A stretch of 30,079 bases of DNA from the IMG/VR virus record IMGVR_UViG_3300028025_002687, positions 1 to 30,079 of that record; one strand, written 5' to 3'. Below, piece after piece: positions 4,783-26,055 of this stretch. Both the position numbers and the translations under genes were made by a program. Under the pieces are notes generated by a model. It had not been told where the DNA came from. It did no database searches and was given only the letters and a program-made list of their open reading frames with translations. Each line of letters starts with the position of its first letter. The stretch's first letter is position 1. This DNA is from a virus.

Positions 4783-4784
4783 GG

Positions 4785-5954: not shown

Positions 5955-5960
5955 TTACTG

Positions 5961-5987
5961 TAAGTATAAATTTAAGAGAAACTGACA
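5961..5987 (-). promoter_or_regulatory. Late-promoter-like element TTGTCA-N14-TATACTTA before portal
   Basis: On the minus strand TGTCA (5987-5983), a 14-nt spacer and TATACTTA (5968-5961) precede the portal ATG by six bases. The same arrangement recurs upstream of three other genes, with a weaker fifth case. The predicted transcript would start at or near the ATG. Confidence 0.6.
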
Positions 5988-5999
5988 ATGTATTGTTTA

Positions 6000-7535: not shown

Positions 7536-7549
7536 ATTAATAGTTTTAA

Positions 7550-7789: not shown

Positions 7790-7794
7790 AATTA

Positions 7795-9390: not shown

Positions 9391-9391
9391 A

Positions 9392-11476
9392 TTATACTGT
9401 TAAGTTACCGAAGACATCCCATTCGTCCGTGTCTATTTTGATAAGAGAAGCTGCGGCATATTGGCCGTTTATTTTCAAAGCACCTCCAAGAGATCTAAGA
9501 GTTACTCCAACAGTTGCAACGATTGTAGTTGCTCCCGCTCCATATTGGGTAACCATTACCTGAGAACCTATAGGGAATGCCTGAGAAGAGTTTAGTGGAA
9601 CAGTTAGATTGTTTGCTGATCCAACGTTCATTTCAACTAATTTATCCTGGTCGGAAGTTACCAAAGAATAAGAGGCAGTTTGTCTGTTGGTTGTAATTAA
9701 AGTATTAGCGGAAGAACCACTTGTTCCCGAAGTTCCCGAACTTCCACTTATCCCAGAACTTCCACTTGTGCCCGAAGTTCCATCTGTTCCAGAAGAACCA
9801 CTTGTGCCCGAAGTGCCTGAGCTTCCACTTGTTCCCGAAGTTCCATCTGTTCCCGAAGAACCACTTGTGCCCGAAGTTCCATCTGTTCCCGAAGAACCAC
9901 TTGTGCCCGAAGTTCCATCTGTTCCAGAAGAACCACTTGTTCCCGAAGTTCCCGAAGATCCACTTGTTCCCGAAGTGCCGTTTGTTGGGGTAGTTACCCC
10001 GTAGTAGTTTGTTCCATCATAAAGAAATGAAACAAAGTCGGAATTACCAACAGTAGTTTGTAAAACCGGTGCAGATCCACCCGTCCAAATAACCGAACCT
10101 GGCCAAGTTACTGTATAAGAACCTGATCCTCCTTGAACCACTTTTGTTGTGTAAACTCCTCCTGCAACCCCATTAGAAAATGTAAGTGTAGTTGATCCTG
10201 TTAGGGTAAACTGTTGAACGTTAGAATTGTTCCAGTCAACTGTCCCAGTTCCTGTAAAGTTACCAGCGTTGTAAAATCTGGAAACTCCCTGACCTGTGAT
10301 CCCTAAGACAAAACCATCAAAAGTTAAATTTGCTTGAGCTATTGCTCCAGTTCCTCCTGCATTAGAAGTTAAAATTCTTGTTGCTCCGCCAGAAGTAATA
10401 TCAACAGAATTACCTGACGTTCCCGAAGTTCCATCTGTTCCCGAAGAACCACTTGTGCCCGAAGTTCCATCTGTTCCCGAAGAACCACTTGTGCCCGAAG
10501 TTCCATCTGTTCCCGAAGAACCACTTGTGCCCGAAGTTCCATCTGTTCCCGAAGAACCACTTGTGCCCGAAGATCCACTTACTCCACTTGTTCCTGAACT
10601 CCCCGAAGTTCCACTTGTGCCTGACGGAGTTGATACCAGGATGAATAGGACCTGATCGTTGTTGCTGAACGAATGTGTGGAAGTTACCAAAGTAACTGGA
10701 AGAGTCCAGTAGGTGGTGTTGTCCACTGGAGTTCCTATTGTCCAAGTTTGATAGTTTGCTTGATTTGCTTTATCTTGGATGGTAATAGTTGTCCCTGAAT
10801 TCAGATTTGCAAAGAAGATATCAACGTTGTTCCCTCCACCATCTTCATCGCTAATGTTTATCTGTGTAGCAGATGCTTGAGTTACATTGTTCCAAATAAT
10901 AAAACCAGCTCCAGGATCACCTGATTGAGAGTTAGTCTTAGCCTCATAGTTGAAGAATGAGTTAGAAAATCCTGGCTCACCTTGTGGTCCTGTTGCCCCA
11001 TTTATGCCAGAAGTTCCTGAGCTTCCACTTGTGCCCGAAGATCCATTTACTCCACTTGTTCCTGAAGAACCACTTGTTCCTGAAGAACCACTTGTGCCTG
11101 ATGAACCCGAAGTTCCATCTGTTCCTGAACTTCCGCTTGTGCCAGAAGATCCATTTGCTCCAGAAGAACCCGAAGTGCCTGAGCTTCCACTTGTTCCAGA
11201 AGAACCCGAAGTGCCGGAAATTCCACTTGTTCCAGAAGAACCCGAAGTGCCTGAACTTCCACTTGTTCCAGAAGAACCCGAAGTTCCTGAACCTCCAGTT
11301 CCTGAACCTCCTTGACCATAGACAATAACGTTGCCTGTAGCTCCGATGCTCGCCAGTTGTCCGTCATTATTGACGAATACATTTAGATAATTTGCTGATG
11401 CTGGATTTGGGGTAGTTCCTGAATATGAAATTTCTATCTGTCCACCCGTTGCTCCAAGTCTTAATCTTCCTGCCAT
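9392..11476 (-). CDS. Collagen-like tail fibre protein, 694 aa
   Basis: A short N-terminal head (MAGRLRLGATGGQIEISYSG, through about 56) precedes three Gly-X-Y blocks at about 57-169, 285-356 and 500-589, built from GTS, GSS and GTD triplets. The blocks are separated by two globular beta-rich domains. A C-terminal domain (590-694) contains a MVTQYGAGATTI strand and ends in DEWDVFGNLTV, like many phage fibre tips. Gly-X-Y repeats form trimeric collagen-like shafts, so a trimeric fibre is the natural reading. The first block ends in ATGPQGEPG, a more classical collagen sequence. It lies in the fibre cluster. Repeats make block length prone to variation and misassembly. Confidence 0.85.
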   Translation of the reverse strand: MAGRLRLGATGGQIEISYSGTTPNPASANYLNVFVNNDGQLASIGATGNVIVYGQGGSGTGGSGTSGSSGTSGSSGTSGSSGTSGISGTSGSSGTSGSSGTSGSSGANGSSGTSGSSGTDGTSGSSGTSGSSGTSGSSGTSGVNGSSGTSGSSGTSGINGATGPQGEPGFSNSFFNYEAKTNSQSGDPGAGFIIWNNVTQASATQINISDEDGGGNNVDIFFANLNSGTTITIQDKANQANYQTWTIGTPVDNTTYWTLPVTLVTSTHSFSNNDQVLFILVSTPSGTSGTSGSSGTSGVSGSSGTSGSSGTDGTSGTSGSSGTDGTSGTSGSSGTDGTSGTSGSSGTDGTSGTSGNSVDITSGGATRILTSNAGGTGAIAQANLTFDGFVLGITGQGVSRFYNAGNFTGTGTVDWNNSNVQQFTLTGSTTLTFSNGVAGGVYTTKVVQGGSGSYTVTWPGSVIWTGGSAPVLQTTVGNSDFVSFLYDGTNYYGVTTPTNGTSGTSGSSGTSGTSGSSGTDGTSGTSGSSGTDGTSGTSGSSGTDGTSGTSGSSGTSGTSGSSGTDGTSGTSGSSGISGSSGTSGTSGSSANTLITTNRQTASYSLVTSDQDKLVEMNVGSANNLTVPLNSSQAFPIGSQVMVTQYGAGATTIVATVGVTLRSLGGALKINGQYAAASLIKIDTDEWDVFGNLTV
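9710..9979 (-). repeat. Collagen-coding tandem repeat, block 3
   Basis: Short tandem repeats in 9-bp (one Gly-X-Y triplet) steps, partly organised in 36-bp units, encode residues 500-589 of the fibre protein. Confidence 0.85.
10409..10624 (-). repeat. Collagen-coding tandem repeat, block 2 (36-bp unit)
   Basis: About four consecutive near-identical 36-bp units (10427-10570) encode GTDGTSGTSGSS. Near-identity at the DNA level, including synonymous positions, points to recent expansion. Confidence 0.85.
10970..11308 (-). repeat. Collagen-coding tandem repeat, block 1
   Basis: Degenerate 9-bp and 18-bp repeats encode Gly-X-Y residues 57-169. This block is more diverged than blocks 2 and 3, as if older. 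Confidence 0.8.
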
Positions 11477-11486
11477 TTTTGTATTT

Positions 11487-12050
11487 TTATGCTGCGTTTA
11501 TATAAAGTTCCCCTGTTTCTGTAATGTAAAGTAGGCCGTCTCCTGCCACAAATAGTGGATCACAAGATGATTCTTCATAATTAGAAACTATATAGGGTGA
11601 ATTGTATGAGTTGATGATGCATCCAACGAAATCTCCAGAATAGTAAACAACAGATAAAGCATCTTCGTTGTCTGAAACGTAATCCACAAAAACAATCTCC
11701 GGTGGAGTGTATTCTTCCAGATACATTTGCCCCTGGTCGATTAGATCTCCAGTAGAAGGATCCAACGAAGGAGAAGTCATGTTCCAAAGTTTATATGTCC
11801 AGTTGCCTGGAGCAAATAACCATACCGAACCTCCTTCAACGTCGTCGATGTCTGCAGAAGTTACCGTAATGGTAAATTGGATAAATCTGGTGTTTCTAAC
11901 AGTATAGGTTGGGATAACGTAAGCCCACTGTTTAGAGTAAGTGTTCTGGAATCCAAATAGAAAATAATCTCCATAACTCACATCTGAGTTAGTGATTGTA
12001 TCTGCGTAGATTACAACTGTATTTACTTGTCCTGGTGTTAGATTTAGCAT
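11487..12050 (-). CDS. Probable virion protein, 187 aa
   Basis: This beta-rich protein begins MLNLTPGQVNTVVIYADTIT, continues with a YFLFGFQNTYSKQWAYVIP strand pair and an FIQFTITVT strand, and ends with short LYITETGELYINA repeats. The final repeats resemble the tip elements of fibre or adaptor proteins. No family name can be given with certainty. It lies between the probable tail tube and the collagen-like fibre, so a small virion or fibre-attachment protein is the best inference. A TGTCA-N14-TATACTTA element lies eight bases before the ATG, marking the likely promoter for the fibre genes. Confidence 0.65.
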   Translation of the reverse strand: MLNLTPGQVNTVVIYADTITNSDVSYGDYFLFGFQNTYSKQWAYVIPTYTVRNTRFIQFTITVTSADIDDVEGGSVWLFAPGNWTYKLWNMTSPSLDPSTGDLIDQGQMYLEEYTPPEIVFVDYVSDNEDALSVVYYSGDFVGCIINSYNSPYIVSNYEESSCDPLFVAGDGLLYITETGELYINAA

Positions 12051-12058
12051 CTTACCTC

Positions 12059-12085
12059 TAAGTATAGAATTAATCTAAACTGACA
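12059..12085 (-). promoter_or_regulatory. Late-promoter-like element TGTCA-N14-TATACTTA before fibre module
   Basis: TGTCA (12085-12081), a 14-nt spacer and TATACTTA (12066-12059) lie eight bases before the ATG of the 187-aa gene. The nine-base string TGTCAGTTT is shared with the portal copy at identical spacing. Confidence 0.65.
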
Positions 12086-12095
12086 TAATATCCAC

Positions 12096-12132
12096 AATAA
12101 ACCCCGGGAAATATCAAAAACCCGGGGTTATT
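12096..12132 (-). terminator. GC-rich hairpin after the tail-tube-like gene
   Basis: The stem AACCCCGGG/CCCGGGGTT has A/T-rich flanks that extend the pairing and a 12-nt loop. The T-tail on the minus strand is weak (TTTATT), so it may be a terminator or a transcript-stabilising 3' hairpin. A promoter-like element follows directly. Confidence 0.7.
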
Positions 12133-12155
12133 TAGGAAAATAGATGCGCTTAGGA

Positions 12156-12689
12156 TTAAGCGTCGACGAATGATGTTCCGGTTAGGGAAGCAAGGGTGTT
12201 TACCTGGTAAGCCATTGCTGGTTCCATCGCCTGTAGGACGAAAGAATACTGAGTAGCATCTCCAGGAGCTGTGCCGGTTGTGGTGGTTCCTGTTGAGATT
12301 ACGCAACCTCTGGTAAGACCAACCATCCAGTATAGACCGTTGTTATCTTCAAATACAACGCGAGACGCTCTGTTGTAAGCAAGCAACTGAATTTGTGCTC
12401 TCTTAGCAGAGGAAAGGTGTTGAACTGGGATAGTAACTTCCTGAGTGAAGAATGCTGTTCCGTTGGTGTTAGAGATGTTGAAAGTCTCTGTGAAAGACGC
12501 AACATCTTTTGCCACCTGCACCTGGTAGAATGTTCCAGTTGCTCCGGTCAATGCTGTGATACCTGCAGTAGCACCTGCAGTAACAGTAGCATATTCAAAG
12601 TCAGAAGATACCCAAAGTGTTTTAATACCCCCGATAGCATCTAAACAGTCTAAAGCGATTGCTGCTGATAAATTACATGATGTAGACAT
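12156..12689 (-). CDS. Probable major tail (tube) protein, 177 aa
   Basis: The protein begins MSTSCNLSAAIALDCLDAIG and continues GGIKTLWVS. Its C-terminal half has VVFEDNNGLYWMVGLTRGC, then a TGTTTTGTAPGDATQYSF segment and MEPAMAYQV, a pattern typical of tail tube proteins, where a glycine/threonine hairpin with GD-x-x-x-Y precedes a late ME-PA strand. Size, beta-rich composition and position next to the capsid gene fit. It is flanked by hairpins on both sides, as expected for a highly expressed gene. The alternative is a minor head or decoration protein; no search was possible. Confidence 0.6.
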   Translation of the reverse strand: MSTSCNLSAAIALDCLDAIGGIKTLWVSSDFEYATVTAGATAGITALTGATGTFYQVQVAKDVASFTETFNISNTNGTAFFTQEVTIPVQHLSSAKRAQIQLLAYNRASRVVFEDNNGLYWMVGLTRGCVISTGTTTTGTAPGDATQYSFVLQAMEPAMAYQVNTLASLTGTSFVDA

Positions 12690-12716
12690 AGTTTGTTTTA
12701 GATTTTTTTATTTAGT

Positions 12717-12742
12717 AAAGGGGAGTTTTTAGGCTCCCCTTT
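12717..12742 (-). terminator. Hairpin after the capsid gene
   Basis: The perfect 9-bp stem AAAGGGGAG/CTCCCCTTT has an 8-nt loop and starts eight bases after the capsid stop codon. No T-run follows on the minus strand, so partial termination or mRNA protection is more likely than full termination. Confidence 0.7.
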
Positions 12743-12749
12743 GGGGTTG

Positions 12750-13694
12750 TTAGATAGTAGAAACGAACTGCGATGGGTAAACCGAGGTCCCGAGACGGAA
12801 TTTTGACATGAAGTTTACAACGTCCTGAGATGGGTCGTAGTAGAACTTGAAGTTGTCAGCATCGTCAAGAAGACCAGTTCCGAAGTAGATATACTTCTTA
12901 GGCCCAAGGATGATGTGTGTATCAACGTTGATACCAGGAGCTGCAAATACAGTTACGTTAGTTCCAGGGAACACGAAAGTAGATGGAGCGTCGCCAGTTA
13001 CGTTGTTGATGTTAGGGTATTGGGTAATCAAAGAGTTACCTTCTGCCATGATAGCTTGAACAAGGATCTGGTAGTTGTTATATGACATATAAGCAACAAG
13101 ATCGTTCTCCTGCTTAAGAGCATTTGAAAGTTTGTTCACGATACCGAACATAGATGCGAATGCGGTGTTAACTGCGAAAGGAACTGTAATTCCTGCGCCG
13201 GTTCCAGAAAGACATCCGTTAGCAACAGTTGCTTGAGCAAGTAGACCATCAAGAGATGCTCCATCACCCTGCCAGATAGTGTTTTCAACGTATTGGCCGA
13301 TGTTAGCGATTTTGTTGTTAGCGATTTGCTCTTCGAAAGGAACGGTTGTAGCGTAAGCTGATGGGCTAAGCTGAGAAGACAACCAGTAGTTTCTTAGATC
13401 TTCTGGGCAAAGTTGCTCCTTAAGCATCTTAGATTGAACAACCAAGTCGATTTGGCTGAATACTGTAGAGTTACCTGTTGCACCACCTGGTCCAACGGTT
13501 GAAGCGTTAAATCCACACGTTGCATCTATGATGTATGCGTTAGAGTTAAGCAAGTTGATTGCAGAAGTTCCTGCAGTCTTACCAGCCATGATGGTAAGCA
13601 TTTGAACTGAGTATGGCTTCAAAAGAGCTTTTGATACCAGGTCAGTAGATAATTGGTCGGTGTAAGCTTGTAAGCTTCCTAATGAAAATGACAT
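12750..13694 (-). CDS. Major capsid protein, HK97-like, 314 aa
   Basis: The protein has the composition and motifs of an HK97-fold capsid protein. CPEDLRNYWLSSQLSPSAYA is followed by FEEQIANNKIANIGQYVENT and a TIWQGD segment, typical of the E-loop to spine-helix region. A later helix has DLVAYMSYNNYQILVQAI and the C-terminus reads DNFKFYYDPSQDVVNFMSKF. Its place directly after a scaffold-like gene and the XkdF protease supports the call. At 314 residues it has no obvious long delta domain, which matches a separate scaffold gene upstream. Leader A/T-rich without Shine-Dalgarno; hairpin follows. Confidence 0.88.
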   Translation of the reverse strand: MSFSLGSLQAYTDQLSTDLVSKALLKPYSVQMLTIMAGKTAGTSAINLLNSNAYIIDATCGFNASTVGPGGATGNSTVFSQIDLVVQSKMLKEQLCPEDLRNYWLSSQLSPSAYATTVPFEEQIANNKIANIGQYVENTIWQGDGASLDGLLAQATVANGCLSGTGAGITVPFAVNTAFASMFGIVNKLSNALKQENDLVAYMSYNNYQILVQAIMAEGNSLITQYPNINNVTGDAPSTFVFPGTNVTVFAAPGINVDTHIILGPKKYIYFGTGLLDDADNFKFYYDPSQDVVNFMSKFRLGTSVYPSQFVSTI

Positions 13695-13712
13695 AGTGTT
13701 ATTTGTTTATTT

Positions 13713-14330
13713 TTAGAATTTTCTTGTTTTAGTAAACTCTTCTCTTAGGGTCTTTAGTCCTTCAAGGCGAGCTTCCATTGGGTCTGTTGAAGCTGGTGCT
13801 TCGTTATTGAAAGTGCTGATCTTAGTTGCTCCTGGAGTTTTTGACATTTTCTCCATTTTGGATTTGTAAGAAGCCATTTCTTCTTTTACGATTCCAACCT
13901 CTTTAGCAACTTCTTCGATAGCCATCATCACCTTTTCCATCATGTTGTCCACATAGGACGCCATTTCTTCTTTGGTGATTGTTGCTTCCGACTTAGTTGG
14001 TTGTTCGGCTGTCTCTTCTCCTGCTGGAATTTCGGATTTTTCTTCGGCTGCTTTGATTTCAACTTCGATTTCCTCTTCTTCTTTTGGAGATTCCACTTGC
14101 GTGATCACCCCTTCTGCATCGACGTAGACGGTGGTGCCATCTTCTAATTCATGGATACCTTCGGGTGCTGGTGCTTTTTCTTCTCCTGAAACAACATAAA
14201 TTTTGCTGCCTGGTTCCAAAGCTTCAGTCATTACCTTAGTAACTCCATCTTTCAAAGTGGCTTCAACCATTCTTACTTCCATGCCAAGAGCGATCTTGAT
14301 TTGGTTTAGTTTTTCTTGATAAAAGTTCAT
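13713..14330 (-). CDS. Probable scaffolding protein, 205 aa
   Basis: An N-terminal small-strand region (GMEVRMVEATLKDGVTK, then GSKIYVVSGEE and LEDGTTVYVDAEGVIT) is followed by an extremely acidic linker (EEEEIEVEIKAAEEK) and a C-terminal helical, Lys/Glu/Met-rich segment likely to form a coiled coil (VDNMMEKVMMAIEEVAKEVG). The acidic, helical composition and position between protease and capsid genes are classic for a capsid scaffold removed after assembly. A 33-nt leader follows the TATACTTA element, and an 18-bp perfect palindrome lies beside that element, so this gene probably opens the capsid transcript. Confidence 0.7.
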   Translation of the reverse strand: MNFYQEKLNQIKIALGMEVRMVEATLKDGVTKVMTEALEPGSKIYVVSGEEKAPAPEGIHELEDGTTVYVDAEGVITQVESPKEEEEIEVEIKAAEEKSEIPAGEETAEQPTKSEATITKEEMASYVDNMMEKVMMAIEEVAKEVGIVKEEMASYKSKMEKMSKTPGATKISTFNNEAPASTDPMEARLEGLKTLREEFTKTRKF

Positions 14331-14363
14331 AGATTGTAAATTTTTATTTTGGGTTTACCTGAG

Positions 14364-14390
14364 TAAGTATAGACTAAATGTCATATGACA
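14364..14390 (-). promoter_or_regulatory. Late-promoter-like element before scaffold/capsid genes
   Basis: TGTCA (14390-14386), a 14-nt spacer and TATACTTA (14371-14364), with the same spacing as the portal and fibre copies. Here TGTCA is the left part of a perfect palindrome. The next start codon is 33 nt downstream. Confidence 0.65.
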
Positions 14391-14393
14391 TTT
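14376..14393. promoter_or_regulatory. 18-bp perfect palindrome AAATGTCATATGACATTT; operator candidate
   Basis: The sequence equals its own reverse complement over 18 bp. It covers the TGTCA element of the promoter preceding the scaffold and capsid genes. A dimeric regulator site is the natural reading, though no regulator is identified. Confidence 0.6.
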
Positions 14394-14395
14394 CT

Positions 14396-16150
14396 TCAGA
14401 TAGATTTTAAGATTTTTATTACCCTCTCGTAGAGAGCCTTGTCTTTTTGGTATGCTTCGTAGTCTTTCTTGTCCATGAAGTCTCCCTCGATCGAGAAGCC
14501 TTTTAGTTCGCCAGCCTTGATTTTCTTCCAAGTTTCTGGATCTTGAACTCTCATCTTAACCATCCATGTGCCCACTGGAACGTCCATATTGTAGAGAGAG
14601 TTTGCTTTGTCCTCTTCGTTTTCCACGATCCAAGTTTCCATGACATAAGTTCCAGCATCGTCTTTTGCTTCGTGCTGAATGTTGGTGTCGTGATTTCTGG
14701 TTTCACGCATAAACTTTTCTGCCACCTTCTGGATCACCTCTTTGGAAAACTTAACGTAGTATGGAAGTTTAGTCTTTTCGTCTTTGCGAAGAATTTCCAA
14801 GTCGGGAATCATTGCCGGTCCAACGACGATCTGCTGGTCTTCCGAAGCAAAGTAGTAACCCATCTTCTGCTCGGAGTGTTTAGGATGTCCTTTAGGCAGT
14901 AGATCGTTGTCCTGATTGTAGTCTTTGTCGTAGCCCGATCTGTTGCCAGCCAGAATGTTTAGGAAAGAATTAACTCTTGCCATTGCCCACTGTGATCTCT
15001 GCATGCCTCTCTTGCCAGGAGTTCCGACTGAATAAGCACCAGCTCCTCTTCTCCATACTGCTTTCAACATTCCAAGAGTTGCTTTCTGGGACTCCTGTGG
15101 ATTCTTCTTGTTGTGCTCCTCAATCTTATCCTTTAGGGTGTTCTCCACTTCTTGAGAAACTTCGATCCCTCCTCTTGTTGTTTTGGTGTCTCCCGGTTCG
15201 TTCTTTGCTGAACCTGTTCTGCCTCTTTCTTCTTTAGGTATTCTTGCCAGAGGTCTATCTCCTGCAGCAAATGCTTCTGTCTGCAGTTCTGGGTGGTAGC
15301 CGAGATAAACCAACTTACCAGATTTGGTGATGGTTTCTCCGTCGACTCTTATTTCTGCAGGTTCTATGTTATCGGGTGTGTCGAACCAATACTCGACATT
15401 ATAGCCACCTTCGGGCATAAGTTCAACTATTAAACCTCTGTCGTAGTCTTCGTCTTCTGCTTGTAGAACAACTTTCTGCCCTCGGGGAAGTGGAATTCCC
15501 TGCAGTGCAAATTGGTCTTTCTTCTTTGGAATTTCGTCCACATAGGGAGGAAGAGTTCCTGTGTCGTAGGACATTTCCTCTTTGCGAATGGACTTTAGTT
15601 TTCTTTCTGCCCATTCTATCCCAGCGTCTCCGCCCCAGGCATCCCACATTAGCTTGCCGCAACCTTCACCATAGGGTGTATCTGAATTTTGTCTATGTCT
15701 TTGGAATGCCGACATGCGAGCAATGGTGTCTTCTGAAATGGGTTCACGATTTGCCAGTTGGTTTGCTCTTGCTTTGCCAGGTCCCATACCGCAGTCTCCC
15801 CAACCATTCTCTTCCGCCCAAGCAAGTGCACGCTTAGCTGCGTTGACTGCTGCCTCGGGATAGTCGGTGTAGGTCTCTGCAAATTCTTCTGCACTTTGTT
15901 TTTCTCTGTAGGTGCTGTAGCAGATTGCTGCAGCCTGATCTGTTTCATAACCTTCGTCTCCAACAAGCTTTGCTATGCAACGGGGGATGAATTCGTCTTC
16001 TGATTCTCCTGCTCCAGGTTCAACGAACTCTTCTCTTTTGAAAGCCATCCAAAGCTTTTCGATTGCAGGAATATCGACCAGTGAAATTGCAGAAACACCA
16101 GATGTATCGACGTCTTCTATAATTTCAAGTTCTATTACTTTTTTTTCCAT
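14396..16150 (-). CDS. XkdF-type prohead protease with a large internal insertion, 584 aa
   Basis: Residues 1-38 (DVDTSGVSAISLVDIPAIEK) and about 430-560 (YYFASEDQQIVVGPAMIPD through GFSIEGDFMD) match the XkdF family of phage head maturation proteases. Candidate residues are H487 or H493 and S553 in GFSIEG. Between them lie about 390 residues with other modules. The first (50-85) has FIPRCIAKL and AAAICYSTYREK. The second (99-190) has GPGKARANQLANREPIS, then ISEDTIARMSAF and a WGGDAG segment. The third (about 330-425) has TLGMLKAVWRRGAGAYSVG and SQWAMARVNSFL. The protease should mature the capsid and scaffold encoded next. The inserted modules are seen in other phage proteins but have no assigned role here. 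Confidence 0.8.
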   Translation of the reverse strand: MEKKVIELEIIEDVDTSGVSAISLVDIPAIEKLWMAFKREEFVEPGAGESEDEFIPRCIAKLVGDEGYETDQAAAICYSTYREKQSAEEFAETYTDYPEAAVNAAKRALAWAEENGWGDCGMGPGKARANQLANREPISEDTIARMSAFQRHRQNSDTPYGEGCGKLMWDAWGGDAGIEWAERKLKSIRKEEMSYDTGTLPPYVDEIPKKKDQFALQGIPLPRGQKVVLQAEDEDYDRGLIVELMPEGGYNVEYWFDTPDNIEPAEIRVDGETITKSGKLVYLGYHPELQTEAFAAGDRPLARIPKEERGRTGSAKNEPGDTKTTRGGIEVSQEVENTLKDKIEEHNKKNPQESQKATLGMLKAVWRRGAGAYSVGTPGKRGMQRSQWAMARVNSFLNILAGNRSGYDKDYNQDNDLLPKGHPKHSEQKMGYYFASEDQQIVVGPAMIPDLEILRKDEKTKLPYYVKFSKEVIQKVAEKFMRETRNHDTNIQHEAKDDAGTYVMETWIVENEEDKANSLYNMDVPVGTWMVKMRVQDPETWKKIKAGELKGFSIEGDFMDKKDYEAYQKDKALYERVIKILKSI

Positions 16151-16157: not shown

Positions 16158-16184
16158 TAAGTATATTTTGTTTACAATCTGGCA
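16158..16184 (-). promoter_or_regulatory. Late-promoter-like element TTGCCA-N14-TATACTTA before protease
   Basis: TTGCCA, a 14-nt spacer and TATACTTA (16165-16158) precede the protease ATG by seven bases. The upstream half overlaps the end of the tape measure gene and differs from TGTCA at one base. Confidence 0.5.
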
Positions 16185-18409
16185 AGAGCATTTAGTCTTG
16201 CGTTTGCTTCTTGCTGAGAAGTCATGTCGGTCGCAACCACATAGGTCTTGACGATTGGCATCTGAGCCATCGGAACATCTGCTGCTCTGGTGTTGCCCAG
16301 AGAATTGATTGCTTCAAGAAGGGGCATGAAGTTTGCTGTTGCTCTGCGGTTGACAACAAATTCACCTCCCTCAAGTTCTCCCATTGTGGTTCTGATACCC
16401 CCCAGGTCATGAGAAGGTCCACCAAGTAATCCACCTTCTGCGTAGGTAGACGGTGTTGATTTAGCACTGTCGGAAGATGTAGAAGAACCTGCTGTAGAAA
16501 CATATTGAGTTTGTTGGATTGCAGCCAACTGGATTGCTGTAGTTGCTGCAGAAAGAGCCAAGAATAGACCAGCAAGTGGAGGTCCACCGATTGCCATTCC
16601 TTTTTCGAATGCAGAAATACCTGCAGAAATACCTGAGATGACTGCTCCTGCATATTGGTAAGCTTTGTTCTTCTCAAAGTATTCTTTTCTGATCTTTTCT
16701 TCTTCTTCCTTGTTGCCTTTTGCTTCCGCAAGTTCTTTAGACATTCTGGCAGAAGATAATTGCTGAAGTCCGGTATTGAGGGAAGCAGCAGTTTGAAGGG
16801 CGAAGTCGACTGCTTCTCTCCTGTTTTCTTTTTCTTCCTCCGAATCTTTTTCTCTAATTTCTCTCTTCTTTCTGGCAATCTCGAGTTCTATGTTGACTGT
16901 GTCTTCACCAGCCTTCTCTGCTGCCTTTAACTGATCCTGAAGACGATTTAGTTCATTTTGTTCTTGAGCATCCTGTAATTCATTTTTGGACAGATTAGAA
17001 TCCAAGAGAGAAACTTCTTCATACTTGTAGTGGTCGTCGATGATGTTCTTGGTTCTCTCATACTTCTTCTGTTCTCTCTGCACCAGAATTTCAGCATACT
17101 CTTGAGCCTGTCTCTTGAGATCTTCGTTCTTCTTTTTCTGAATGTCAAATTCCAGCTTTGCAGTTTCTGCAGTTTGTCTTAGAATAACAACGTCAAGTTC
17201 TGCATTCAAGGCTTTCTTTTCTTTTACCTCTTCTGCAGTCAAGGCTCTCTTTTCTTTGGAAGCCTTTTCTTCGATGGCAACGGACTTTAAGATCAGTTCT
17301 CCCCTTTCGTTTAGCTGGTCGAACTCCAGCTTCAATCTGTTTCTATCGTCTTCAGAAAGCTTGGTGTCAAGCAGAGCAATCTGCTGATAAGTCTTGGTTT
17401 GTCTATCGTAGGATTCCTGAGTTAATCTCTTAGCAGTTTCGTTTGCTTCTTTTAGAATTCTTGTTCTTTCGTCCGACTTCTTTTTGAAATCATCAGTGAT
17501 TGCTTTCTGAGCGTTGATTGCATCGACTTTATTCTGTGTGTTTAGATTGTCGATGGTTGCATCGTTCTTTCTGGCAACTTCTCTGTAAGAATCTCCAGCT
17601 TTTTTGTAGGCTTCGTCGGTTTCTTTTAGTCCTTTGACTGTTGCCTTGAAGTTTGCATAAGCATCTGAACTTTCTTGTTTTAGCAGTGCGATGATTTTTT
17701 CTCTGCCTGCAATCTCAATGTTCGCAAGTTCTTGAGCAGATGCTCCTCTTGCCTGGGCTTGGGCAATGGAGATCTTAGTTGCATTTTCATAATCTCTGGT
17801 GTATTCTCCAACCAAGAAGTTTGTGTATTCCAGTTGGCCGTTATACTTTCTCTGAGCAGCATCGAGTTCTTCTGTAGATTTAGTTGCTCCACCTATTGCT
17901 GCACTGATGTCGTCCCAATAAGCTATAATGCTTCCAAGTGCAACCACCAGAAGACCAATCCCTGTAGAACCGATTGCAGCCTTAATGGAGTTGAATGCGT
18001 TGACAGCAACGCCCTTCAACTGGGTGAATGCTCGACCTAAGTCTTCGAGTTGTGCAAGTCCTTGAGATAGAGCAAGAGCAGATTGAACTCTGACCAGTGT
18101 TTTCTGTAGATCCTTAGATTCTGCACCAACAAGTCCCATTGCTCCCTGGATTGCTGCAAAACCTCCCGCAACACCCGAGATTGCCTTACCAACTGCTTGG
18201 AATTGTCCTGCTCCTGTAAATGCACTGACTGCGTCTCTCGCATCGTCTATTTGATCTTTCAGTTCTGCCGCCCTTAGTGCTGCACTCTGAACTTGCTGAG
18301 AAGTGGAACCAAATTGCTGGGTCAGCATCTGGACTTCTTGATTTGCCTCCCTTAGTTGGGCACGAAGGTTGGTAAACCCAGAGACTTCTAAAACTATTTC
18401 TTCTGCCAT
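16172..18409 (-). CDS. Tail tape measure protein, 745 aa
   Basis: The N-terminus is a long amphipathic helix region (NLRAQLREANQEVQMLTQQF). A hydrophobic segment follows near 150-165 (GIGLLVVALGSIIAYW), then about 400 residues of Lys/Glu-rich coiled coil. A second hydrophobic region (about 590-635) precedes a C-terminal GGLLGGPSHDLGGI and GELEGGEFVVNRRATANF segment, typical of tape measure proteins. It sets tail length: at the usual ~0.15 nm per residue, 745 residues suggest a tail near 110 nm, hence a siphovirus. It is encoded after the tail-tip genes rather than before them, which is unusual. Confidence 0.88.
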   Translation of the reverse strand: MAEEIVLEVSGFTNLRAQLREANQEVQMLTQQFGSTSQQVQSAALRAAELKDQIDDARDAVSAFTGAGQFQAVGKAISGVAGGFAAIQGAMGLVGAESKDLQKTLVRVQSALALSQGLAQLEDLGRAFTQLKGVAVNAFNSIKAAIGSTGIGLLVVALGSIIAYWDDISAAIGGATKSTEELDAAQRKYNGQLEYTNFLVGEYTRDYENATKISIAQAQARGASAQELANIEIAGREKIIALLKQESSDAYANFKATVKGLKETDEAYKKAGDSYREVARKNDATIDNLNTQNKVDAINAQKAITDDFKKKSDERTRILKEANETAKRLTQESYDRQTKTYQQIALLDTKLSEDDRNRLKLEFDQLNERGELILKSVAIEEKASKEKRALTAEEVKEKKALNAELDVVILRQTAETAKLEFDIQKKKNEDLKRQAQEYAEILVQREQKKYERTKNIIDDHYKYEEVSLLDSNLSKNELQDAQEQNELNRLQDQLKAAEKAGEDTVNIELEIARKKREIREKDSEEEKENRREAVDFALQTAASLNTGLQQLSSARMSKELAEAKGNKEEEEKIRKEYFEKNKAYQYAGAVISGISAGISAFEKGMAIGGPPLAGLFLALSAATTAIQLAAIQQTQYVSTAGSSTSSDSAKSTPSTYAEGGLLGGPSHDLGGIRTTMGELEGGEFVVNRRATANFMPLLEAINSLGNTRAADVPMAQMPIVKTYVVATDMTSQQEANARLNALARL

Positions 18410-18412: not shown

Positions 18413-21202
18413 TTAGTATGTGATGTTGATGTATGCTGTGTAAGTATCGGAAGTGTTGATAACTGCCGGAAAGATTGCTGAAATTGGCTGGTAAGTTCCT
18501 GATCTGGAAGCTGTTGCTCCAGTCAGTCCGTTCGTTGCCAGAGAAATTTCTTGTGAAGCACAGGTTGCTCCTGGTGCTATATCTGAAGTTAGTTCCAACT
18601 TGATGCCAAAGCCAGCAGGAAGATTGGGCCATTCAACTTGGAAGTTGTTGTTTCCCTCCACCGTGTAGTTGTTGATTGGAATGTAAGTTCCTCCTGTTCC
18701 TCCAGTTGATCCAGATAGAATAACTGTTGTGAATGGAGATGGAACCCTTCCAACTGTATTGTCAGTTACTATCGTCATAACCAGATTGCCTCCCGTTGTT
18801 CCACAAGAGCCAAGATCTGACACGGTCCAACCTGATGGCAATGGATTTATCAAAGGATATAAAGCACATATTTCTTGTCCGCAAGCCAAAGGTCCAAGGG
18901 TAATTGATCTTAGATTGCTGTCGCAGTCCACATAAGTGTAGGTTGTTGCAGGATCTGTAATTGGATTGTTGTTGCAAAGTCCAAGAGTTCGACAGGAAGT
19001 TCCTGCTGTTGCTCCTGTTGCAGCCAAAGGAATTGGTCCTGGGATAGCCACAGCGGGAACTTTTACTAAGTCAACTCTGACCAAAGCAGTTTCACCAAGA
19101 GCATAATCTGCTATCTTCTGAATGAAATACCAGGTGTCCTTAATCCAGATGCGATCGTTAAAAGAAAGTTCTAAAATGTCTGCTGGATCTAATCTTAGTG
19201 TTAAGGAAACTTTTCTGTTGTAGGGGTCGTAGAGCCAGTCCACATATTCGTCCCAGTAGACTGTGTATAAATCTTGAGATGTGTTGTCCACTAAGGTGGA
19301 ATCTGCCGACCAAGGTTGTTCTTTAGACAAGAAGTTTAGATTCACTGTGGAAAACAAATTTGGAGGCCAAGATGAATATGGAGAAATTAACGGATAAGAG
19401 TTCTGGGCCTGTCCAGTTCCTGAACCAGAAACACCGTTAAATAGATACCATGGGATTGGGTTAGATTGTAAGCCGTTGTAGTGATACAGTCTTGGTCTTG
19501 GAACTATAGGTTCTATCCTTGCAGAGTTGGGTTGATCCTGATTGCCCGGTTGAAGTCTTCCCAGAGTTGGAAACACCCAGTTCGGATAGGAAGTTCCTTT
19601 GGACGGAATAGATTGCAGAGGATTAGCTCCGAACTGCACGTCGATCGGCTGTTCGTCTCTGATGAGTTTGATCCCTGAATCGAACTGACGATACCAGTAG
19701 TCGGCTTTGTTCTGCTCTTGATATTGTTTGTTCAACCAATCTTCGTCGTCCTGTGCGCCGAACTTTAGAATTCTCTGTTGCTCAGCAAAGACGGGCGAAG
19801 ACTGTAAATCCGCAGAACCGTCGTAAAGTCTTGTCCAATCTCTAATGTCTCCTGCTTGAACCCAGTCAATCCAAGGTTCGATAAGGAAAGTCTTCTGAAC
19901 AACTTTAGATGGTTCGAACACCAGATTGAACATGCGAACCAGAGATCTAATAAAGTCTATCTTCTTGAGGATTGTTTCGTCCGGCAGGAAAGAAGACACA
20001 ACGACCTGATTTGGTCCGCTGATACAGTTAAACGCAGAATCAAAGAAGACTGTGGCAGAATCTCCGAACGACATGTTTTCTATTCTGACATCGACCGTGT
20101 CCCCTTTGTTTAGTGAGATAGAACCAGAAGTCCAGTTCCAGTCTCTCTCGGTAACACCATAGGTTGTAAGAACTCCAGAATCGTAAACCAAGATGTCGTT
20201 GATGTATGCCTTGACCCTGAATGCAGCCTTTGGTCTGTTAATTTCAGACTGAGCCTTTCCCACAGCCACAAATTCATAGGAACCGTTTGCCGGTGCAGTC
20301 CATACGTGAGTTGTTGTGTTAAATGCCTGGTCGAAGTTGTTGAACGTTGTTCTAAACGGGATGATCTCGGTTGTTCCAAGATTGACCGTAAATGCATCTG
20401 CAGTTACTTGACAAGTTCCAGATGGATTTAGAAAGTAGGGTCTTGCCACAGAATCCGACACAAAGTAGAGAGACTGGAAATAGTCAGATTCTAAAAATGC
20501 AGATGTGTATGTGTAGCCAGCGTCGGACAGAATTTTATCCAACAGCCACTTAACCCTGATTGCAGGTTTCATCTGCTCCATCCTGATTGCCGAAGTTGCA
20601 CCTGCAGTGAAAGACTTGACGTAAGAATGGGAGAGAGTAGACTGCAGAGGAATGCCTTCGTTAGGACCTGTTCCGTAGGTGTAGCCCCACTCGCACAAAG
20701 GGTATAGAATGTTTCCATCCAGAAGACCTGCAGTTGCTCCTCCTGTTGCCGCCCATGATGCTGTTACATTCGCATAGGACAGCACGTGATTTAGCTCAGA
20801 TGCGTCGATGGTATTCATTCCATCTTCCCCGATGGAGGTAGAGAGATTTGAAGTGTCCCCCAGGAAGTAAACGTCATACTCTATGGACTTTGTCTGATCG
20901 TTGGTAACAACGGACTGCAGATTTAGATTACCAAAAGAGAACAAAGTTCCATCAGAAAGAATCCAAGCCTGTGCTGCTGCAGCCGGGTTGAACGTGCTCC
21001 CGTTGACCGAGTAGACGTCTTGGAAGAACTGGGTGTTCGGTCCAATGCCCGGAAGTCTAAATGTTTGCGAGAAGAAAGAAGATGGGGTGAACGGATTTAT
21101 CTCCGCCACTGAAAGATTCATCTTCACTGGAGAATCATCTGACAGTTGCAGAAGAACTGTTTCCCCCTGTGGGTTGACTGCGTAGAGTTGGACTTTGGAC
21201 AT
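18413..21202 (-). CDS. Large tail-tip/baseplate protein, 929 aa
   Basis: The ATG at 21202 (MSKVQLYAVNPQGETVLLQL) is preferred to the upstream option at 21250, because it follows the previous stop by one base (TAATATG). The N-terminal third has features of large Bacteroidota-phage tail proteins: SSFFSQTFRLPGIGPNTQFF, then FNPAAAAQAWILSDGTLFSF, then YDVYFLGDTSNLSTSIGEDG and HVLSYANVTASW. Beta-sandwich-like domains follow, and the C-terminus has Gly/Thr-rich strands. No hydrolase motif was found. It probably forms part of the tail tip; the exact part cannot be named from sequence alone. Confidence 0.65.
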   Translation of the reverse strand: MSKVQLYAVNPQGETVLLQLSDDSPVKMNLSVAEINPFTPSSFFSQTFRLPGIGPNTQFFQDVYSVNGSTFNPAAAAQAWILSDGTLFSFGNLNLQSVVTNDQTKSIEYDVYFLGDTSNLSTSIGEDGMNTIDASELNHVLSYANVTASWAATGGATAGLLDGNILYPLCEWGYTYGTGPNEGIPLQSTLSHSYVKSFTAGATSAIRMEQMKPAIRVKWLLDKILSDAGYTYTSAFLESDYFQSLYFVSDSVARPYFLNPSGTCQVTADAFTVNLGTTEIIPFRTTFNNFDQAFNTTTHVWTAPANGSYEFVAVGKAQSEINRPKAAFRVKAYINDILVYDSGVLTTYGVTERDWNWTSGSISLNKGDTVDVRIENMSFGDSATVFFDSAFNCISGPNQVVVSSFLPDETILKKIDFIRSLVRMFNLVFEPSKVVQKTFLIEPWIDWVQAGDIRDWTRLYDGSADLQSSPVFAEQQRILKFGAQDDEDWLNKQYQEQNKADYWYRQFDSGIKLIRDEQPIDVQFGANPLQSIPSKGTSYPNWVFPTLGRLQPGNQDQPNSARIEPIVPRPRLYHYNGLQSNPIPWYLFNGVSGSGTGQAQNSYPLISPYSSWPPNLFSTVNLNFLSKEQPWSADSTLVDNTSQDLYTVYWDEYVDWLYDPYNRKVSLTLRLDPADILELSFNDRIWIKDTWYFIQKIADYALGETALVRVDLVKVPAVAIPGPIPLAATGATAGTSCRTLGLCNNNPITDPATTYTYVDCDSNLRSITLGPLACGQEICALYPLINPLPSGWTVSDLGSCGTTGGNLVMTIVTDNTVGRVPSPFTTVILSGSTGGTGGTYIPINNYTVEGNNNFQVEWPNLPAGFGIKLELTSDIAPGATCASQEISLATNGLTGATASRSGTYQPISAIFPAVINTSDTYTAYINITY

Positions 21203-21203
21203 A

Positions 21204-23144
21204 TTAGTAGCTTTGGGTATTTGCTGGTAGAGACTCCACGAAGGAGACAAAGTATTGGAAGAGGTTCTCCCTGCGGATGGTCTGAACTGCGTATTCTGCG
21301 TCCTGGATTACAACAGCCACCGGTTGGGTTCTGCCAGGCAGATAAGCTATCACAGATGGAGAAGCGAACATGTCTCTCAACCAAGCCGACTGTGCTTCAG
21401 TCAACCAGTCAGTCGAAGCAGTCCAAGTGTTGGTTAGATCTGTCTTAAACACTGTTGTTCCGAATCGTGCAGGCTGGTTGTCCTTCACACTGTAAGAAGC
21501 TGCGGACCAGTAACCAGGAAGTTTATAGAGGGTAGATCTGCTTGCTTGTTGCACGAAGGTGTTTCTCTTGATGAACGTAAACCAATCTCTGCCGCCCAGT
21601 GGGTTTATCCAAGTAAACCTGATTGGTTCAAAGCCCCAACAGTTTGTGTCGTCTATGTTTAGACAGATAGTTTCTGAAGTTGCTGTCGCCCCCAAAGTGC
21701 AAGTTCCATATGTGTCGTATGGGTAAAGTGCTAAGCACATCTTGTTGAAAGGTGCTGTTAGAGTTTGGGTTATGTCCCACTTGTTGATACAGTCGGCGTT
21801 GGTAAAGGTTGGATAACCGGTTGGTCCAATCAAAACTTCGTTATACTGGGTGGGAGCAGTAACTTGGAAGCGAAGACCAAGTGCATAGTATTGTTTTGTG
21901 GTTGTGCCCGTGAACGTAAAGTAGGTGAAGTTGGTTGGCTGTTCCGAAGTTGTAAAGTCTCCAATCTTCTCCCAGTTTGCCCCAGTAGTCAAAGTTGTTG
22001 AAGTTGTTCCCCAAAGTTGTAGGGTTGGATAATCAGAACCCCAAGGACTTGAAGAACCTAATTCGATTGACAAAGAAGCACCAGTTGCTGCAACCATCGC
22101 CTTGTAGACAATCTCGGTAGATCCCGTAGATCCAGAAATTGGTTGACTGGTCAGCCAAGTGTCATCGTTGGAGCCAATGCTGATCCCTGAAACTGGTGGG
22201 GTAAGTCCAGAAGAAATCTGACTTGAGAACACATCAGCAGTTGGAGAGTAGTAGCCGAACGCCCAAGTGCTATTTGGCCAGATGTCGTCTTTGGTTCTGG
22301 TGTAAGTAAAAGTTTGTCCAGGATTTATCTTGAAGGACTCCAAGTAGTTCTGTGGTCCTGAAGCTCCCGTCGCAGAAGGTGCAACGGAACAAGATGGCCA
22401 GATTCCTCCATTAGCCACCGTGTTAAAGAATGTAGCAGAACCAATCGAAGTGTTGTTGTTGTAGAAAGACACCTTCATCGCATAAGGATAGGTCTGTGGA
22501 CCTGTTGCTGGCTCAAAGTTTCTGTTCAACCAAGTTAACGTGAAGTCTTCGTCGGATCTGATGGACTGTGGAGAATCTGGACAGTTAGTTAGAAACTTTC
22601 CGCCCGTGTCGTTGACTTGTCCAAGTGCCATCTCATAATCTAAGACTCCTTCTCCACCAAGAGCAATCCAGTTGTAGTATTCTTCAGGAGACTGAGCTGC
22701 CGCCCAAGATGCAACAGGGGTTGTGTTGTTCGGTGCAGGTCTGAAGTTTCCATCTGCGTAAAGACCATATGCTGGTTCTCCGACCAACCCTGAACCGTTG
22801 TAGATCACAGGATTTCCTGTGGGAGTTGTAGCATATTCTTCACCAGCCAGAATGTAGACGTTGGTCGCCAGATAATCTCCTGTGTAGAACGGGGTGTCCG
22901 AGAGCATCGGAAGGTTCAGTGGGATTTCCAACTCTGCCGCCACCAGTGCGTTGACGTCGATTAGACCTTTGCCTTCTGGATTGGGTGGAACTTTGAAACG
23001 CACTTTGGTCTTCCCGTAGACGTAAACGTCGAAGACATACCTAAACTTGTATTCGGTAGTCTTGTCCGACTCGATCATCCAGATGATTGGATTGTATGCT
23101 GCCGACCAGATTGGTGGTGATTGGAGGGTATTGGTGATTGCCAT
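21204..23144 (-). CDS. Tail-tip/distal tail protein, 646 aa
   Basis: The N-terminus (NTLQSPPIWSAAYNPIIWMI, then YKFRYVFDVYVYGKTKVRFK) and the C-terminal block (FEPIRFTWINPLGGRDWFTF, then WLTEAQSAWLRDMFASPSVI and LFQYFVSFVESL) fit a tail protein type common in Bacteroidota siphophages. The middle is Ig-like and Ser/Thr/Gly-rich. The C-terminal part resembles distal-tail-like domains by its pattern of a strand, a WL-containing helix and a V-Y-LP strand. The ATG overlaps the stop codon of the -1 frame of the upstream gene as TAATG, supporting that frame's reality. No enzymatic motif is seen. Confidence 0.65.
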   Translation of the reverse strand: MAITNTLQSPPIWSAAYNPIIWMIESDKTTEYKFRYVFDVYVYGKTKVRFKVPPNPEGKGLIDVNALVAAELEIPLNLPMLSDTPFYTGDYLATNVYILAGEEYATTPTGNPVIYNGSGLVGEPAYGLYADGNFRPAPNNTTPVASWAAAQSPEEYYNWIALGGEGVLDYEMALGQVNDTGGKFLTNCPDSPQSIRSDEDFTLTWLNRNFEPATGPQTYPYAMKVSFYNNNTSIGSATFFNTVANGGIWPSCSVAPSATGASGPQNYLESFKINPGQTFTYTRTKDDIWPNSTWAFGYYSPTADVFSSQISSGLTPPVSGISIGSNDDTWLTSQPISGSTGSTEIVYKAMVAATGASLSIELGSSSPWGSDYPTLQLWGTTSTTLTTGANWEKIGDFTTSEQPTNFTYFTFTGTTTKQYYALGLRFQVTAPTQYNEVLIGPTGYPTFTNADCINKWDITQTLTAPFNKMCLALYPYDTYGTCTLGATATSETICLNIDDTNCWGFEPIRFTWINPLGGRDWFTFIKRNTFVQQASRSTLYKLPGYWSAASYSVKDNQPARFGTTVFKTDLTNTWTASTDWLTEAQSAWLRDMFASPSVIAYLPGRTQPVAVVIQDAEYAVQTIRRENLFQYFVSFVESLPANTQSY

Positions 23145-23952
23145 TATCTTACTTGGTGTTTAGTTTGTTTCTGTATTTCAAGATTCTGTCTCCGAGTTTC
23201 GTCTTTTTTCCAACTAAGCCAGTTGAGCGCTTCTCTAATAGGGAGTTTTGCTGATTCACTAAATCTAAGAGGGTCTCCTCCAGAAAGGAGATTGAGGGTG
23301 TTCCACCATTCTCTTGCTGCAGAGAAAGTGCTTTTCTGATTTGGTCTTTTAGGGATGTCTCCACCGTCTTCATCAGAGGACTTTGCAGCAAAGATTCCGC
23401 TGTATTCCTTAGTGATGAGTTGGCGGACTGCAAAAAAAAAGCATTGGCTGATCTAACAGCAGAAATTGGAAGGTCCATAAATAGCTCCGCTCTCTGACGG
23501 AACCCTTTGGAATCGTAGTCTTCCAGAGTTAGCACTCCGTTGACGTCCTCCAAGACTGGTCGGTATAGAACTGCTGCAACTTCGTTTAGTTTGTTCTTTG
23601 CTCCCGGAGAAGACAGAATAACTTCCAAGTCGGCAAATTCACCCACTGTTAAATCTTCGATTGCAGGTAGACCATACTTTACATCTCTGAATTCCATTGT
23701 TGGCTTGATTGCATCGGTCTTGCCCGAAAGCTCGTTGATGAGCAGGATGGTCTCTTCCCAGATGATTAGCCAATCTTGGTATCTTAGTTTGGTCAACTGT
23801 TCTTTTGGACACCCAGTTAAACACTGGACTATCTCGAACTCTGAACCTTCTTTCTGCTCGACCAGGATTTCCTGGAGTTCATAGTAGTTTCGAAGGGTGA
23901 TATCTTCGAAAGTGTAGGTTTGGTCTTTTATTTTGAAACTTGGTTTGTTCAT
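23144..23952 (-). CDS. Probable -1 frameshift fusion of the tail assembly chaperone, 269 aa
   Basis: Shared residues 1-173 continue, after a -1 slip on T9 (23440-23432), into a 96-residue alternative C-terminus: FAVRQLITKEYSGIFAAKSS, later REWWNTLNLLSGGDPLRF and LPIREALNWLSWKKDE. The alternative frame is closed by TAG 13 nt before the reference codon at the tract and then stays open for 97 codons. It ends in TAATG with the next gene's start. U-UUU-UUU is an efficient -1 slippery heptamer in the correct phase. Tail assembly chaperones (lambda G/GT) are classically expressed by such shifts. The WW-LNLLSGGDP and ALNWLSWKK stretches look like a genuine folded domain. Confidence 0.65.
23149..23952 (-). 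CDS. Tail assembly chaperone-like protein, zero-frame product, 267 aa
   Basis: The gene lies between gp10-like and tail-tip genes. The N-terminal half reads FKIKDQTYTFEDITLRNYYE, then TVGEFADLEVIL and NEVAAVLYRPVL, a pattern found in chaperone-like proteins of Bacteroidota siphophages. Zero-frame reading passes through the T9 tract (residues 171-174, AFFL) and continues 94 residues to a helical, basic end (LGDRILKYRNKLNTK). ATGA couples it to the preceding gene. Because the two frames after T9 are both open and near equal in length, either could be the main product. A homopolymer indel in the assembly is the other explanation. Confidence 0.7.
   Translation of the reverse strand: MNKPSFKIKDQTYTFEDITLRNYYELQEILVEQKEGSEFEIVQCLTGCPKEQLTKLRYQDWLIIWEETILLINELSGKTDAIKPTMEFRDVKYGLPAIEDLTVGEFADLEVILSSPGAKNKLNEVAAVLYRPVLEDVNGVLTLEDYDSKGFRQRAELFMDLPISAVRSANAFFLQSANSSLRNTAESLLQSPLMKTVETSLKDQIRKALSLQQENGGTPSISFLEETLLDLVNQQNSLLEKRSTGLVGKKTKLGDRILKYRNKLNTK
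23432..23440 (-). other. T9 slippery tract (-1 frameshift site candidate)
   Basis: On the minus strand codons GCT TTT TTT TTG contain the U-UUU-UUU heptamer in phase. The -1 frame opens immediately upstream and ends at the next gene's start codon. Confidence 0.6.
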
Positions 23953-24806: not shown

Positions 24807-24833
24807 TAAGTATGATTTAGTCTATTTCTGCCG
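24807..24833 (-). promoter_or_regulatory. Weak late-type element before the tail module
   Basis: CATACTTA (24814-24807) with CGGCA 14 nt upstream sits seven bases before the ATG at 24799. A second overlapping TATACTTA (24808-24801) lacks an upstream partner. This copy is degenerate and overlaps the end of the terminase gene. Confidence 0.35.
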
Positions 24834-26055
24834 AAGATTTTTGCGCACCCATAACAACATATTTTCTGGTGTTGCCTTTGTCTCTGCTCAGGGCGTATCG
24901 CAGAGCATCCATCAGGTGATTATAGTCGTCCACTGGTTTATCCGTTCCAGTCCTGTAGGCATAGTTATAGTATTCTTGGATTAGATTGGTGGATTCTGGG
25001 TGGACATGCACTTCAAAGGTCCTTAGTTTGTCTATGCCCGCCCTCACCGAATCTGGACCTTTGCTGGCCGGCTGAATGTTTCTATAGCCAAGTCTCCTTA
25101 GCGTCTCGATTGTCTTGGGCTCAGCTGCGTCCGCCATGATGGTGGCAGTAGATGGAATCTTTAATCTCACCAACCTCTGATAGATGTCTTCGTTGGTCAG
25201 TCCTGTTTCGTAGATTAGTTCTTCCACCCAAAGTCTGTTGCTTCTCTTCTGCACTCTCACCATAGCAGTTGGGTCTGTTGAAAACCCAAAGTCCAAGCCA
25301 TACAGGGTTTCACCCTCTGGATCTGGAGAGAAGTCGAAGTGCCAACCCTTGAACACCTGGCCTTCCCCAATGTCCCGCCATTCGCCAAGAATGTGATGGG
25401 AGAAGTAGTCTTCGTCTTCTTCTCGGAGGGCTTCCCACTCGGCAACCTTAGAAGCATCCAAGTTGTCCTTGTTGTCCATGTAAGTCGTGTGGAGGTAGCC
25501 GTGTGTGCTCAGCCACTTTGGATTGGGTTGCCCGTCCGGAAGATAAAATCTCTTGAACAGCCAATGGGACTTTGCAGTCGGGTTGAACAGAATGAAGATC
25601 CTTCTCTCTGCACCCTTCTGCCTGAAGGAATCTATTAGTTTCAGGTATTCCTCCTCAGAGGGTAATTCCGTTGCCTCATCCACAAGCAAATGAGTTACAC
25701 GGGCTAAACCCTTGCCCTTCGCAGTTATCGTTCCTTCGGCCAGCTTCATTGCGTGAGTCAGGATCAGATTGTCGTTTAGTTTATTTCGGATCTCATCTCC
25801 CTTGATTTCAAGGTAGCCTGTAAGTCTCCACTGACCAATAAGATCAAGGATGTCTCGGTAGATCGAGTTGGTCAGAGCCTTTGAGGTATAACGGGCGATA
25901 ACCCCTCTGAAGTAATCCTTACCCATCAGTCGCATCAGAAAGTAGGCTGCAATGTTTGTCGATTTTCCTGATGCCCTTCCCCCACTTATGACCCAATAAG
26001 TCTTGTCCTGATAAAATATCGGAGCATACGCCGGGAGGAAAGCAAAGGATGACAT
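24817..26055 (-). CDS. terL: Terminase large subunit, 412 aa
   Basis: The Walker A sequence GGRASGKST (residues 25-33), Walker B LLVDE (123-127) and coupling motif ILFNPT (155-160) form the packaging ATPase. The nuclease half has the three expected acidic positions, in YGLDFGFSTDPTA (D255), MADAAEPKT (D309) and NHLMDALRYAL (D383). The length is typical of PBSX/SPP1-like terminases. It overlaps the small subunit gene as TAATG. The protein powers DNA packaging through the portal, which in this genome is encoded far away. A headful mechanism would agree with the circularly permuted map but cannot be shown here. Confidence 0.93.
   Translation of the reverse strand: MSSFAFLPAYAPIFYQDKTYWVISGGRASGKSTNIAAYFLMRLMGKDYFRGVIARYTSKALTNSIYRDILDLIGQWRLTGYLEIKGDEIRNKLNDNLILTHAMKLAEGTITAKGKGLARVTHLLVDEATELPSEEEYLKLIDSFRQKGAERRIFILFNPTAKSHWLFKRFYLPDGQPNPKWLSTHGYLHTTYMDNKDNLDASKVAEWEALREEDEDYFSHHILGEWRDIGEGQVFKGWHFDFSPDPEGETLYGLDFGFSTDPTAMVRVQKRSNRLWVEELIYETGLTNEDIYQRLVRLKIPSTATIMADAAEPKTIETLRRLGYRNIQPASKGPDSVRAGIDKLRTFEVHVHPESTNLIQEYYNYAYRTGTDKPVDDYNHLMDALRYALSRDKGNTRKYVVMGAQKSSAEID

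Follow-up and report, generated by a model that had tools for sequence, protein, structure and literature searches.

Introduction

Tail assembly chaperones of the G/GT class bind both the tape measure protein and the tube protein; they are absent from virions, and the ratio in which G and GT are present matters. Recoding is already known as a property of these chaperones. The described systems rely on ribosomal frameshifting (PMC5009743), and averages from annotated phage sets put the stop of frame 0 at 26-36 nt beyond the slip site (PMC10885494). Nine A or T residues in a row also promote efficient slippage of RNA polymerase in bacteria without any helpers, and transcriptional slippage on nine Ts gives rise to two products from the dnaX gene of Thermus thermophilus (PMC5009743).

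Here we describe a gene from a virus record of 30,079 bases; this whole stretch of DNA is referred to as the window. The gene resembles lambda gpG/gpGT (as well as the HK97 and P2 E/E' systems) in its placement among the tail genes upstream of the tape measure gene, in its -1 slip site, and in the fusion to a second domain encoded in the -1 frame (PMC5009743). It differs from the lambda-type chaperones in that its tract consists of nine Ts (T9), that a Pfam match is undetectable, and that frame 0 runs for about 280-290 nt past the tract, across the T domain, compared with the 26-36 nt of the annotated sets (PMC10885494). The short overlap of the canonical G/GT layout, which is typical of the class and not its defining trait, is thus not found in the window. 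With T. thermophilus dnaX the gene shares the nine-T tract and the (here predicted) formation of two products (PMC5009743); dnaX, however, is not a phage structural gene and possesses no 0-frame tail dual-coded over a whole domain. In the literature that we searched, the coverage of which was incomplete, we found neither the T9-only family nor the fully overprinted 0-frame tail. The family to which the gene belongs adds a large, almost unannotated group of phage tail chaperones (96 non-redundant examples) with a near-invariant recoding signal, and in one of its clades two frames are under simultaneous selection over nearly 100 codons.

Architecture of the locus

The coordinates of the relevant features are compiled in Table 1. 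The original prediction had placed a U-UUU-UUU heptamer in phase within GCT TTT TTT TTG, and this holds on the minus strand: a heptamer of the X_XXY_YYZ type is present in phase as U_UUU_UUU (23440-23434), and a second one, U_UUU_UUG, occupies positions 23437-23431 of the T9 region. A run of nine A or T residues is by itself unremarkable, about one being expected in the window. As had likewise been predicted, both frames are open beyond the tract; frame 0 stops 96 codons from it, and the fused -1 product comprises 171 + 98 = 269 residues, so that the two lengths given in the prediction (267 and 269 aa) are correct. The -1 frame is indeed shut by a TAG upstream of the tract and open thereafter; the distance from this TAG to T9 is 12 nt, and the open stretch, counted from the first T of the tract, measures 98 codons. 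Its TAA (23146-23144) shares the last A with the ATG of the following gene (23144-23142), which yields the TAATG that had been noticed before. The +1 frame is shut within about 10 codons downstream of T9.

Table 1. Features of the chaperone locus and of its client gene in the window.
Feature	Position	Strand	Basis
0-frame coding sequence, 267 aa	23149..23952	-	ORF read from the sequence, and homologues
Chaperone N-domain (residues 1-171) and 0-frame C-terminal tail (residues 172-267)	23149..23952	-	
T9 slip tract, phase GCT_TTT_TTT_TTG	23432..23440	-	Sequence; kept in relatives
-1 frame domain, 98 codons + TAA; T-like domain of the fused product	23144..23440	-	Family alignment
Doubly read region; -1 synonymous sites constrained, 0-frame stops avoided	23152..23431	-	
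Following gene (646 aa, tail/virion protein), whose ATG has one base in common with the -1 stop	21204..23144	-	Conserved neighbour in the clade
Tape measure protein, expected client of the chaperone	16172..18409	-	PHROGs tape measure matches (E 3.5e-5); synteny

These features lend themselves to a model in which a slip back by one base at T9 occurs in a share of the readings, so that one gene would probably specify two proteins with different ends; that the -1 product is made we regard as near certain. Most readings would keep frame 0 and provide the 267-aa protein corresponding to G, and a minority would slip by -1 at T9, most likely on the ribosome at U_UUU_UUU, and provide a 269-aa protein corresponding to GT, in which an ancestral, helical T-like domain would follow the same first ~171 residues. 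If lambda is a guide, the tape measure protein would be coated by G and GT, with recruitment of the tail-tube protein falling to the T part. In the clade of the window, the 0-frame stop is found at the end of the gene, as opposed to 24-49 codons past the tract in much of the rest of the family, and the whole T domain is hence encoded atop a second, selected 0-frame tail. The tract, the two frames, their conservation and the constraint acting on both are read from the sequences themselves.

Identity of the gene and its genomic surroundings

The gene is surrounded by tail genes, and two genes separate it from the tape measure gene, which lies downstream, in an order (terL - p159 - neck/tail-completion - chaperone gene - p646 - p945 - tape measure-like) that is kept across the clade. 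Neither the 0-frame nor the -1 protein matches any Pfam family, and a PHROGs search assigned the N-terminal part to PHROG 32199, a group of unknown function in which the Nonlabens phages P12024S/L are also represented. The AF2 model of the 0-frame protein reaches a mean pLDDT of 80.5, with a confidently predicted N-domain (about 90) and a tail scoring 41-78; the mean for the -1 domain is 73, with helices predicted for its residues 2-12, 41-52, 57-64 and 68-97. When residues 1-85 of the model were aligned with the PDB in a second look, the first two places on the list went to 3FGX (Z 4.0) and to 2OB9, the tail assembly chaperone of HK97 (Z 3.4), both values being weak; a PDB search with the -1 domain gave no convincing match. 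No match was obtained when the tape measure protein was compared by tblastn with phages, or in a search for a portal in the relatives, the latter result being uninformative. The gene order, the slip site and the second-frame domain fit the predicted tail assembly chaperone with a -1 shift, and together with the weak fold match they favor, well ahead of any other reading, a tail assembly chaperone of the G/GT type.

Several other genes of the window deserve mention. The head genes (4141-16150) are located downstream of the tail genes and away from terL (24817-26055); they include the portal (4785-5954), a capsid-like gene (12750-13694) and a protease (14396-16150). The 945-aa open reading frame (18413-21250) begins with a TTG and has 47 nt in common with the preceding gene; its actual start probably lies further downstream. 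Positions 9392-11476 encode a protein with long GTSGSS repeats that resembles a collagen-like tail fibre.

Conservation of the tract among homologues

Since our first pattern search made use of the tract itself and was biased in consequence, profile searches were run with the N-domain alone and with the -1 domain. The profile searches without the tract and one pattern search, after removal of near-copies, provided the 96 non-redundant relatives on which our analysis relies. An in-phase U_UUU_UUU is present in all 96, embedded in T9 in 92 and in T10 in four of them, and never in T7 or T8 or replaced by another heptamer. The tract is followed by a -1 domain of 77-106 codons in every relative whose sequence was readable in this region, including those found without using the tract. 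The protein pattern of this domain, W...LA..D...L(N/T)(W/F)L (W, LA..D and FNWL/TFL motifs), is conserved throughout, in agreement with the earlier impression that the -1 C-terminus reads like a real domain. The homologue alignment that had been suggested as a check on the original prediction therefore speaks in its favor, and in the window's clade both frames are open along the entire domain or the greater part of it. The tract occurs in two codon phases, xxT TTT TTT TTz and xTT TTT TTT Tyz. In a codon-counted set of 51 members, the codon after FF (Leu or Phe) reads TTG in 40 out of 42 first-phase lineages, where TTG accounts for about 11% of the Leu codons.

Homopolymers are error-prone, and one might hence suspect that T9 reflects a sequencing or assembly error, or that the gene is a decaying frameshift mutant in which no recoding takes place. 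However, T9 is found in independent contigs, among them one near-identical genome and relatives down to about 25% identity, and both frames are under constraint. As the same layout is seen again in L002/L013, a separate and near-identical contig, and in relatives with as little as about 25-30% identity, an error in tract length is excluded, and we judge the absence of recoding to be extremely improbable.

The family is almost wholly unannotated and contains a single cultured genus. The Nonlabens phages P12024S and P12024L (gp38-gp39; Inhavirus), the only cultured relatives found by sequence, share the T9 (CTT TTT TTT TAT), the same -1 domain and PHROG 32199 with the window but differ in their 0-frame tail, which is just 27 codons long. 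In the genome of P12024S (NC_018271; L005 7779-8473), the -1 frameshift has been missed, and gp38 and gp39 are annotated as two hypothetical proteins. With the family described, annotators can add the GT protein that has been missed. A first scan of a genome collection returned no relatives, and a second one returned three Bacteroidota MAG contigs with relatives and two contigs whose bin names point elsewhere. Judged from the Nonlabens phages and the Bacteroidota MAG contigs, the hosts are probably Bacteroidota. A protein of Flavobacterium phage 6H (L212 10352-10927) with a structural match (BFVD R9VW65) carries FFY near its C-terminus and T_TTT_TTC instead of T9, and its -1 open reading frame opens only past a TAG; should it be a relative, the switch would work differently there.

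Selection on both reading frames of the overlap

Three tests addressed the overlap, and in all of them the part of the short-tail clade that lies beyond the 0-frame stop served as a built-in control; the lineages tested are non-redundant at 90% identity yet still related, and their individual probabilities are consequently not to be multiplied. When the -1 codons were exchanged synonymously, the probability that frame 0 of the window is open across the whole -1 domain was about 0.001. Across all 34 long-tail lineages, the corresponding chance never exceeded 0.041, and for 24 of these it was no higher than 0.002; stops in the control lineages were about as frequent as expected. In the second test, we made use of the fact that the third positions of four-fold degenerate -1 codons coincide with second positions in frame 0. 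Identity at these sites in the distal overlap exceeded that in the N-domain by +0.09 to +0.34, with column-bootstrap intervals above 0 in all four identity classes, whereas the control clade gave +0.01, -0.03, +0.08 and +0.04, with every interval including 0. Third, the similarity of the 0-frame proteins with the -1 protein held fixed yielded z values of 2.6-5.0, versus about 0 in the controls below 50% identity. A sister clade in which frame 0 is closed displayed no constraint at the -1 synonymous sites. Because 0-frame stops are avoided and -1 synonymous sites are constrained, and because neither constraint is seen in the sister clade with the closed frame, we conclude from these comparisons that the overlap in the window's clade is under selection in two frames.

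Two-frame selection leaves room for the view that only the -1 fusion is a functional addition, and that the long 0-frame tail is non-functional read-through, kept open for coupling to the next start or against polarity. The avoidance of stops is the strongest of our signals, as such read-through would predict, and the offset of the clade's 0-frame stop from the -1 stop ranges from -50 to +31 nt, which places it beside the following start. Under a stricter null, for which the codons of the region were permuted in a stop-free manner, residue conservation of the 0-frame protein was small among distant relatives (z 0.6 at 20-40% identity). At 40-65% identity, however, residues are conserved beyond this stop-free, codon-matched null, with z values of 2.1 (control 1.1; few pairs) at 40-50% and 3.6 (control 1.2) at 50-65% identity. 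Moreover, in other clades of the family frame 0 terminates far upstream, and these manage without such coupling. We consider non-functional read-through possible, though less likely than not. As judged from the alignments, selection is stronger on the open frame than on the exact residues, the frame being open across the clade and the residues being kept mostly among nearer relatives. When the window is compared with its near-identical relative, 295 nt of overlap show 0 differences and the N-domain shows 13; this was dropped as an argument, since other 150-nt blocks nearby also show 0.

Ribosomal or transcriptional slippage

A downstream RNA structure or an SD-like stimulator is usual, albeit not universal, in programmed -1 ribosomal frameshifting. 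A downstream structure conserved across the family was not found (mean folding z about -0.2); the 86 nt of the window itself fold well (z -3.5), a value for a single sequence. No SD-like element was seen by eye, and Rfam gave no match. A stem-loop (AGTCCGC...GCGGACT) noticed by eye just past the tract in the closest relatives was rejected, as it follows from the FAVR and EYSGL codons and vanishes elsewhere.

The original prediction had raised transcriptional slippage on T9 as an option, and we retain it as a serious rival, possible though on the unlikely side. RNA polymerase would insert an extra U at T9, and the resulting T10 mRNA, translated normally, would give the same 269-aa product. The strict use of T9 or T10 in two codon phases, to the exclusion of T7, T8 and any other heptamer, would suit such a process, as would the failure to find a ribosomal stimulator. 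An A/T run of at least nine, the length associated with slippage without a helper structure, is present in 96/96 relatives; such runs slip efficiently in bacteria, and T. thermophilus dnaX does so at nine Ts (PMC5009743). Outside the chaperone gene, A/T runs of at least nine are apparently rarer than expected (about 8 versus 21 in a shuffle expectation for L024-L103, obtained by subtraction). On the other hand, the known tail chaperones use ribosomal frameshifting (PMC5009743), a search for an upstream hairpin found none, and the positions of +1-frame stops, examined as a possible sign of transcriptional slippage, are the same as in the background. Nor is the exact T9 decisive, because the U_UUU_UUU heptamer and a joint requirement for FFL in frame 0 and FFF in frame -1 would fix the same nine Ts.

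With these arguments in mind, we lean toward slippage on the ribosome. We likewise hold the explanation as a whole, in which G and GT result from -1 slippage at T9, most likely ribosomal, and a selected 0-frame tail overprints the T domain, to be reasonably probable. Counted against it are the lack of a conserved stimulator, the weak chaperone fold match and the modest constraint on 0-frame residues in distant comparisons; nine Ts where seven suffice and the two codon phases are also what transcriptional slippage would select. Rather improbable, in our view, is the combination in which polymerase slips on an invariant T9 in a deep clade of uncultured phages, probably infecting Bacteroidota, and the 0-frame tail forms another functional domain that overprints the T domain in full, with both products ending in working, different domains. 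The family offers a clean test case for distinguishing slippage of the ribosome from that of RNA polymerase.

Length of the 0-frame tail across the family

The 0-frame stop follows the tract after 24-49 codons in 41 of the 96 relatives, after 57-73 in 20 and after 78-107 in 35. With the exception of L203 (80 codons), the long-tail members, 34 of 35 and including the window, group together in the tree, which is read as unrooted. Within this clade, the 0-frame open reading frame spans the -1 domain wholly or nearly so, and the tails in the rest of the family measure 24-80 codons. The original prediction had regarded two alternative C-termini of equal length as an unusual variant. The long 0-frame tail is borne out for the window's clade, but it is best read as an overprinted addition to an ancestral G/GT system and not as one of two equivalent alternative domains. 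The series of tails (24-49, 57-80 and 78-107 codons) provides natural material on how an overlapping gene grows. Tails of intermediate length, 57-80 codons in frame 0, characterize a second clade (L158, L166, L210 and the L145-L203 group), and some of its members carry T10; growth of the 0-frame tail may accordingly have occurred more than once.
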